Positions 25,383-26,665 of a DNA stretch of 64,000 nt are shown one piece after another (the first letter of the stretch is position 1; every line of letters starts with the position of its first letter). The translations under genes and the position numbers were made by a program. Source of the stretch: Salidesulfovibrio onnuriiensis (GTDB lineage: Bacteria; Desulfobacterota; Desulfovibrionia; Desulfovibrionales; Desulfovibrionaceae); the NCBI RefSeq assembly GCF_008001235.1, contig NZ_CP040751.1:1223001-1287000 (forward strand), written 5' to 3'. The notes under the pieces are model-generated. The model was not told where the DNA came from, ran no database searches, and worked only from the letters and a program-made list of their open reading frames with translations.

Positions 25383-25422
25383 ATTTTCCGCCTTCTTCTT
25401 GCCAGGGGGCAAGGGGATGATC

Positions 25423-25428
25423 ATTATA
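25423..25428 (-). promoter_or_regulatory. Candidate -10 box of pyrR
   Basis: Exact TATAAT on the minus strand, about 40 bp upstream of the chosen pyrR start. No good -35 at 17 bp spacing; TTGGAT is 15 bp away. Confidence 0.4.
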
Positions 25429-25499
25429 GGAATATAAGGGATAATCCAAGCGGCAGCACCGGTCAACATTGTCTTTTAGGAATTCTTCTCATTAATGAA

Positions 25500-25505
25500 T
25501 TGACA
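25500..25505 (+). promoter_or_regulatory. Candidate -35 box for the selenoprotein gene
   Basis: Exact TTGACA, 54 bp before the start codon. The hexamer at 17 bp spacing is TACCTC, a weak -10, so the promoter may need help from an activator. Confidence 0.4.
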
Positions 25506-25559
25506 AAGGCGTTCATAGGTCTTACCTCTTCATTTCCCTATGTTTGAAAGGAGGCATCT

Positions 25560-25883
25560 ATGATTAACGTTACCGAATCCGCACAGAAGCAGCTCGAAGG
25601 CTACTTCGCGGACAAAGAATCTTCCCCTATCCGGGTTTATCTCGCATCCGGCGGCTGAGCTGGCCCCAGGCTGACTCTGGCTCTGGATGAGCCTAAGGAT
25701 ACTGACGAGGTGTTTGATGTGGCCGGGTTCAAGTTCCTGCTGGACAAGGATCTTTCCGAAGCGACCGGCGGCATCAAGATTGACATGACCTATTACGGAT
25801 TCTCCGTGGATTCCGAAAAGCCCGTGGGCGGCGGGGGAGGATGCTCCTCCGGTTCCTGCTCCAGCGGTTCCTGCGCCTGCTAG
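25560..25883 (+). CDS. HesB/IscA-like selenoprotein (in-frame TGA read as Sec33)
   Basis: 107 residues if the TGA at 25656-25658 is read as selenocysteine. AAGGAGG lies 5 nt before ATG 25560. The frame reads through VYLASGG-TGA-AGP, continues 74 codons through a HesB/IscA-like body and ends in a Cys-rich tail (CSSGSCSSGSCAC). The tandem paralogue 200 bp downstream has VYVAQGGCAGP, with Cys exactly at the TGA position. A stem-loop follows the TGA at once. HesB-like selenoproteins are a known family in related bacteria. Without Sec decoding a 32-residue stub would result. The role is unproven; IscA relatives carry Fe-S clusters or iron, and here Sec replaces a conserved ligand or redox Cys. Confidence 0.88.
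25659..25680 (+). promoter_or_regulatory. Candidate bacterial SECIS stem-loop
   Basis: Begins immediately after the TGA. CCAG (25666-25669) pairs with CTGG (25677-25680), leaving a 7-nt loop that starts with G and contains T (GCTGACT). An outer GGCT/AGCC pairing spans the TGA itself. Distance and loop type fit bacterial SECIS elements, which have little primary sequence conservation. Confidence 0.6.
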
Positions 25884-25905
25884 CGCGTTGCCACGCTGAT
25901 TCTCG

Positions 25906-25931
25906 AGCGCCCCTTTGGGGGCGCTTTTTTT
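25906..25931 (+). terminator. Terminator after the selenoprotein gene
   Basis: Stem AGCGCCCC/GGGGCGCT with a short loop, then T7. It separates the Sec gene from its Cys paralogue, so the two are probably separate transcripts. Confidence 0.92.
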
Positions 25932-26105
25932 ATGGTTGCGCGTTTGACGCGGGCGTCCATGATGTTTAGGTATGAAGTCAGTCTGTTGGGTCGAGAGATG
26001 CTATTGGCCTTTCCTATGGGAAACGTCGCAAACAGCATTGATTTTCCATTTGACGAACCCCATGATCATCCCTACCTGAACAGGGAGACAACAAGGAGGA
26101 TCTTT

Positions 26106-26447
26106 ATGATCGAAGTTACCAAGGAAGCCATTGGCAAGCTCGAAGAGCATTTCGAAGGCCAGGATCGCCAGCCCATCCGCGTTTACGTGGCCCAGGGCGG
26201 CTGCGCCGGTCCCATGCTGGGCCTGGCCCTGGACAGCGCCAAGGACGGCGACAAGTCCTTTGACATCGACGGCTTCACCTTCATTGCCGAGGAAGGCCTG
26301 TTTGAATACACCGGCGACATCAACATCCACGCCAACGAGCATGGATTCCAGGTCGCCAGCGAAAAGCAGCTTCCCGGTGGCGGCGGCTGCGGTTCCGGCG
26401 GTTGCTGCGGTTCCAGCGAAGGCGGCTGCGGTTCCGGCTGCTCCTAG
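26106..26447 (+). CDS. HesB/IscA-like protein, Cys paralogue of the selenoprotein
   Basis: 113 residues. Starts MIEVTKEAIGKLEEHF; the core IRVYVAQGGCAGPMLGLALD aligns residue for residue with the selenoprotein, having Cys in place of Sec. The C-terminal tail is Gly/Cys-rich (GGGGCGSGG, CCGSSEGG, CGSGCS), longer than in the Sec protein. AAGGAGG lies 5 nt before ATG 26106; the open frame back to 25932 includes the terminator and is not coding. Likely an Fe-S or metal-binding protein of the IscA class. No isc or suf genes are adjacent. Confidence 0.88.
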   Translation: MIEVTKEAIGKLEEHFEGQDRQPIRVYVAQGGCAGPMLGLALDSAKDGDKSFDIDGFTFIAEEGLFEYTGDINIHANEHGFQVASEKQLPGGGGCGSGGCCGSSEGGCGSGCS

Positions 26448-26532
26448 GCCCACGCTGACGGCGTTAAGTGAATTGTTGGCGAGCTAGCGAGCCTACAAGG
26501 CCTTACGCCCTAGGTGTACTGCAAAAAGAAAG

Positions 26533-26579
26533 AAGCCCTCGTGTATGTTTCAATACATGAGGGCTTTTTCTTGTTTTGA
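26533..26579 (+). terminator. Terminator hairpin, degenerate family A repeat
   Basis: Arms AGCCCTC/GAGGGCT with inner TGTAT/ATACA, then T5. The preceding TACTGCAAAAA and the following TTGTTTTGATGCC...CACGGCTTTGA resemble the inside and right end of family A, but terminal repeats are eroded. Confidence 0.75.
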
Positions 26580-26665
26580 TGCCTTGCTCTCGCACGGCTT
26601 TGACCAGCAGCAGGAATATTCTCGTGCCTGGTCAGCGCGCTTTCCGAGCAGCCGGAACAAAAAGT

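Follow-up and report, generated by a model that had tools for sequence, protein, structure and literature searches.

Does the TGA codon that interrupts a short open frame in the genome of Salidesulfovibrio onnuriiensis stand for selenocysteine (Sec), and what might the resulting protein do? The frame lies in a window of 64,000 nucleotides, the whole stretch of DNA that was analysed, together with a tandem paralogue that carries Cys at the same place. The features of the locus are collected in Table 1.

Table 1. Features of the predicted Sec gene and its Cys paralogue, in positions of the window
Feature	Position	Strand	Basis
Shine-Dalgarno sequence AAAGGAGG, 5 nt 5' of the ATG of the Sec gene	25547..25554	+	read directly
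Predicted HesB/IscA-like selenoprotein gene, 107 residues, Sec33 from TGA, Gly/Ser/Cys tail	25560..25883	+	NF038090, PF01521, genus-wide TGA
In-frame TGA (codon 33), at the place of the conserved HesB-domain Cys	25656..25658	+	paralogue alignment
SECIS-like hairpin GGCUC-UGGAU-GAGCC, its loop 25 nt downstream of the UGA	25679..25693	+	pairing, synonymous suppression, fold z
Intrinsic-terminator-like hairpin after the Sec gene	25905..25926	+	weak on its own
Shine-Dalgarno sequence AGGAGG of the Cys paralogue	26094..26099	+	read directly
Tandem paralogue with Cys, 113 residues, lacking the SECIS-like hairpin	26106..26447	+	NF038090, 98.1 bits
Intrinsic-terminator-like hairpin after the Cys gene	26530..26569	+	weak on its own

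Reading frame and translation signals

The frame of the Sec gene starts with ATG, has the TGA as its single interruption and continues for 74 residues beyond it, into a tail with four Cys beyond residue 90. In the alignment with the tandem copy (53% identity), the TGA falls on Cys33 of the paralogue (GG-TGA-AGP versus GGC-AGP). These points had been claimed in the original prediction and can be read in the sequence, as can the strong ribosome-binding site that it described; a Shine-Dalgarno-like string is found no more than 20 nt from the start in all 62 Sec copies that we collected. Under translation table 11 the gene terminates after residue 32, and the table 11 list of open reading frames of at least 60 aa has no entry for it on that frame, in agreement with the claim that ordinary ORF calling truncates it. 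The further claim, that default annotation would lose the gene, is true of such a plain list; however, a curated model, IscA_HesB_Se, exists, so annotation that uses this model may well find it.

Family assignment and predicted fold

Both copies pass the 85-bit cut-off of NCBIfam family NF038090 (IscA_HesB_Se), the Sec copy with 121.5 bits and the Cys copy with the score given in Table 1. In hmmscan, the Sec copy also passes the gathering cut-off of Pfam PF01521 (Fe-S_biosyn; 33.5 bits against 26.3), and the Cys copy, at 25.7 bits, stays just under it. A whole-genome search with PF01521 gave no matches at all, although hmmscan passes the Sec copy and nearly the Cys copy; this search being insensitive, NF038090 was used for the genome searches. 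With 37.9 bits against TIGR01911 (HesB_rel_seleno), whose curated cut-off is 66.35, the Sec copy falls outside that subfamily. It also scores far below the canonical carrier cut-offs for IscA (TIGR02011, 27.7 against 150.6 bits), SufA (TIGR01997, 21.1 against 136.2) and ErpA (NF010147, 21.1 against 117), and neither copy reaches the cut-off of TIGR01911, of TIGR00049 or of whichever IscA, SufA and ErpA equivalogs it matches. The Sec copy has the motif UxGP, as U33-A-G-P, its UGA falling on the conserved HesB Cys in the alignment. Rfam, at gathering thresholds, detected nothing in the window.

A sequence search of the PDB returned IscA-type entries, including 1nwb and 1s98, at E values of 1e-4 to 7e-3, along with weaker chance matches. 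The AlphaFold2 model, built from 15 sequences, has a mean pLDDT of 76.8 and a pTM of 0.61, with residues 91–107 below 50. Among PDB structures it most closely matches those of IscA and SufA, with E values as low as 1.5e-6, the highest TM-score being to 1s98 (0.69 by query, 0.75 by target); the DsrR structure 2k4z matches as well (E 1.1e-3).

Selenocysteine machinery

The genome, a single contig of 3,886,744 bases with a completeness of 100 by the tool's figure, encodes selA (615.6 bits), selB (402.2 bits), selD (327.6 bits) and a tRNA-Sec with anticodon TCA, that is, the full Sec decoding trait. The original prediction had called for these genes, and all are present. The selD gene (locus L018, G000:C1:1015077-1016003) has an in-frame TGA near its own start (AAG-TGA-AAK), so that SelD is probably a selenoprotein too.

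We looked for selA in 20 genomes, 12 with a listed TGA copy of the family and eight without a listed TGA copy over the cut-off. It was found in 16, including all of the first 12. Among the other eight, selA is present in G036, G060, G077 (which has a TGA copy over the cut-off after all) and G113, and was not found in four. Three of these four (G040, G042 and G069, 95–100% complete) contain TGA-free family matches only, as expected. The fourth, G061 (84% complete), departs from expectation: its TGA copy, at 44.6 bits and thus below the family cut-off, retains an intact hairpin. This genome counts against our preferred explanation, and its incompleteness may account for the apparent lack of selA. 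The diverged Sec copy of G061 (L112, hairpin GGUUC-UGGAC-GAACC) is located just upstream of a gene that, judged by eye, resembles one for a Tat-type ferredoxin-like protein. The 2.5 Mb genome G036, from the same family as S. onnuriiensis, has nine HesB-Se matches (in loci L107, L114 and L116–L120), three of them with TGA and eight below the cut-off, which represent either an expansion or weak chance matches.

Conservation downstream of the TGA

NF038090 matches 114 of the 118 genomes searched as relatives (S. onnuriiensis included), 107 of them over the cut-off; the four genomes without a match are 53–89% complete. Among the matches listed, a TGA-bearing copy occurs in all 36 genomes of the genus, again counting S. 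onnuriiensis. The sets used for dN/dS and synonymous divergence consist of genus copies only, 33 distinct Sec copies and 22 Cys copies. Pooled dN/dS for the Sec copies amounts to 0.106 before the TGA and 0.178 after it; the Cys copies are less constrained, with 0.296 and 0.400 for the same two parts. No Sec copy of the genus has a further in-frame stop in codons 34–85 and all 33 have stops in both other frames, so the open frame is more than chance. The stretch beyond the TGA evolves under purifying selection. Relatives that have a stop here and no conservation downstream, named in the original prediction as the outcome that would tell against it, are thus not what the genus contains.

A SECIS-like hairpin

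Sec and Cys copies were harvested from the fetched loci with the regular expression [GA][GASTC][CU]xGP. After removal of 17 duplicates and three rows with an offset other than 31 or 32 (chance matches), 115 rows were reduced to 95 motif-bearing copies: 62 Sec copies, drawn from the genus, family, order and beyond, and 33 Cys copies.

The SECIS-like hairpin occupies positions +23 to +37, counted from the T of the TGA. All five of its pairs form in 62 of the 62 Sec copies, as opposed to one of the 33 Cys copies at the same places. Among the Sec copies, two-sided changes are seen at three of the five pairs and the loop reads UGGAU in 55 and UGGAC in seven; the sequences are related, so none of these hairpin counts represents independent events. 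A sixth, outer pair (+22/+38) is limited to 23 of the 62. The stem codon at +24 is GCT in 60 of the 62 Sec copies versus four of the 33 Cys copies. Within the genus, Sec copies have a synonymous divergence of 0.066 across codons 40–45 and of 0.390 elsewhere in the gene; the corresponding values for Cys copies are 0.436 and 0.350. The hairpin is protected from synonymous drift in the Sec copies.

Folded on its own, the 21-nt hairpin has an energy of -8.8 kcal/mol and a z of -3.34, whereas the 48 nt after the TGA give an unremarkable z of -1.10, a comparison between stretches of different length, the shorter of which was picked with the conserved hairpin already known. For the 48 nt after the Cys codon of the paralogue, the fold has a z of +0.71. 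In single-sequence folds of 48 nt, the hairpin is not the minimum-energy structure in some Sec copies (for example, L037, L057, L059, L089, L094 and L100), its pairs being possible there nonetheless. The bacterial SECIS (bSECIS) model given in PMC13188914 has a loop of 3–9 nt, a stem of 4–16 bp, a G in the first two loop positions, a spacing of 16–37 nt and a minimum free energy of -7.5 kcal/mol or lower. The 5-nt loop UGGAU, 5-bp stem, 25-nt spacing and energy of the 21-nt hairpin all fall within it.

The original prediction had placed a stem-loop directly after the TGA and had proposed SECIS folding as a check. Such a stem-loop does fold there in the sequence of S. onnuriiensis but is not conserved; we dropped it as the SECIS because the 48-nt folds of relatives differ and the z of the 48-nt fold is ordinary. 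A SECIS-like element is supported slightly further on, in the next hairpin.

That the TGA is a true stop, behind a pseudogene or a functional 32-residue product, agrees with the table 11 reading, but the selection data already make it very unlikely, and with the TGA kept across the genus, the hairpin shielded from drift and the machinery complete it has practically no chance of being correct. Another reading, in which the UGA is translated as Trp or Cys, or with the help of a near-cognate tRNA, has nothing specific in its favour. It is contradicted by the Cys at the aligned position in the paralogues, the tRNA-Sec in the genome and the absence of the bSECIS-like hairpin from 32 of the 33 Cys copies, which all point to Sec, and we consider it extremely improbable. 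The TGA of the Sec gene is, on this comparative evidence, almost certainly decoded as selenocysteine; taken by itself, with any carrier role set aside, the selenoprotein assignment is one about which we have scarcely any doubt.

The Sec/Cys gene pair

Neighbouring copies on the same strand form 33 pairs among the fetched loci, with gaps of 112–1211 nt; Sec precedes Cys in 31 and follows it in two. Five of the 33 rows have gaps identical to others and are apparently repeat fetches, which leaves about 28 distinct pairs, 26 versus two. The two copies are not neighbours in every genome; in G049, Sec and Cys copies are about 68 kb apart.

On the tree of the copies, which has few columns for its rows and 31 of its 90 inner branches drawn open, the Sec/Cys label needs 11 changes, at least eight of them forced by starred forks. 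Sec and Cys copies of the same genome are sisters with starred support in G037, G066, G044, G049 and G057, all outside the genus. The Sec/Cys pairing therefore seems to have more than one origin. The sister copies fit repeated duplication with Sec-to-Cys conversion; gene conversion between the copies could produce the same picture. Of the 22 Cys copies of the genus, 21 fall into one 22-row group (support 95/69, not starred), the remaining row of which comes from G063 of the same family, so the pair seems to be old within the genus.

The only Cys copy with a full SECIS-like hairpin, including a UGGAC loop, is that of G044 (locus L020, TGT codon). This hairpin is likely to be a fossil SECIS left by a recent Sec-to-Cys conversion; a SECIS remnant of this kind is reported for a HesB-like protein of Desulfitobacterium hafniense in PMC1794560. 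A Sec/Cys tandem pair of the HesB-Se family did not appear in the titles and abstract openings of the open-access literature that was searched. The tandem Cys copy, with its own ribosome-binding site, may be a selenium-independent paralogue that serves as a backup.

Each gene of the S. onnuriiensis pair is followed by a terminator-like hairpin, but two such sites in the region are not above expectation (shuffled mean 1.5, sd 1.2). A scan of positions 25400–26650 for sigma-70 promoters found none. The hexamer TTGACA occurs at 25500–25505, upstream of the Sec gene, with no matching second hexamer in the scan. The two genes might be transcribed separately.

Proposed function

We propose that SelB and Sec-tRNA insert selenocysteine at UGA codon 33 in vivo, directed by the hairpin with its GG-containing loop 25 nt downstream. 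In the HesB domain, Sec33 would then stand in for the first Cys ligand; further ligands would come from the flexible tail of Gly, Ser and Cys instead of from a C-terminal CxC. A-type carrier activity is the probable role of the small protein: Sec33 (Cys33 in the paralogue) and thiols of the tail would coordinate an Fe-S cluster, or iron, for transfer to apo-proteins. The proposal as a whole, a HesB/IscA-fold selenoprotein with UGA33 read as Sec by means of the hairpin and a probable carrier role, we regard as likely, with room for error.

In a TIGR00049 search of 37 genomes, of which 23 belong to the genus, no A-type carrier exceeded the cut-off, whereas eight of 14 control genomes pass the same search. 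Both genes of the window do match this model, so that the negative result differs in nature from that of the insensitive PF01521 search, and those weaker matches that were compared fall at HesB-Se places; a diverged canonical carrier could still be missed by the search. A-type carriers are described in PMC2682760 as absent from many Delta-Proteobacteria, and the genome encodes a NifU-type scaffold. From these three observations we infer that the pair does the job of an A-type carrier.

Canonical A-type carriers have a C-terminal CxC motif. The lack of this motif in its place and the low confidence with which the tail is predicted count against a carrier. In the alternative reading the product would be a selenoprotein with the IscA fold but no Fe-S carrier: a redox protein, or one that handles metals, sulfur or selenium, as DsrR-like proteins may be. 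DsrR, whose structure the model also matches, belongs to the IscA-like proteins and is not known to act as a carrier. The function of the HesB-like selenoprotein of Methanococcus maripaludis is given as not clear in PMC11097638, and PMC13188914 considers that most uncharacterised selenoproteins are likely to have redox roles. Against this alternative, Sec or Cys still fills the first HesB ligand position, three to five Cys follow residue 80 in all 62 collected Sec copies, and no TIGR00049 carrier passes the cut-off in the 23 genomes of the genus that were searched. We hold it to be possible but unlikely, and keep a probable A-type carrier as the preferred reading. A more far-reaching version, in which the HesB-Se family provides the only A-type carriers of the genus and the Sec/Cys pair is a selenium switch, repeatedly re-created by duplication, Sec-to-Cys conversion and SECIS decay, appears doubtful to us.

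Comparison with known HesB-like selenoproteins

As the original prediction stated, HesB-like selenoproteins are known in related bacteria. They have been in print since 2006–2007: those of Desulfovibrio vulgaris and D. desulfuricans are tabulated in PMC1794560 (2006), PMC1914089 (2007) lists DVU_1382 of D. vulgaris as a gene of the HesB family with a TGA, and the HesB-like family appears, with the motif UxGP, in a 2026 table (PMC13188914). The Sec gene is therefore a further member of an established family and would not in itself surprise a selenoprotein specialist. Passing NF038090, and with UxGP and a Sec at the conserved HesB Cys, it shows no difference of kind from the deltaproteobacterial members, DVU_1382 having been compared by description. 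The tandem Cys paralogue at the locus has counterparts at many related loci. To TIGR01911 (HesB_rel_seleno) the Sec copy aligns over residues 17–77 with an E value of 2e-9.

The HesB-like selenoprotein of M. maripaludis, found by mutagenesis and 75Se labelling (PMC11097638), is by description likewise a HesB-like protein with Sec. It differs in being archaeal; archaeal SECIS elements are, according to PMC13188914, of another type and mostly located in the 3'-UTR. A disruption mutant was unimpaired in nitrogen fixation, an unpublished observation quoted in PMC11097638 that counts against our preferred explanation. With the canonical carriers IscA, SufA and ErpA the Sec copy shares the PF01521 domain and the predicted fold; unlike them, it has Sec for the first Cys and a Gly/Ser/Cys tail instead of CxC, and it scores below their cut-offs. 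The gene is a well-supported addition to the selenoprotein family, in bacteria without a canonical A-type carrier over the cut-off, which allows the Sec and Cys forms to be compared within one organism.
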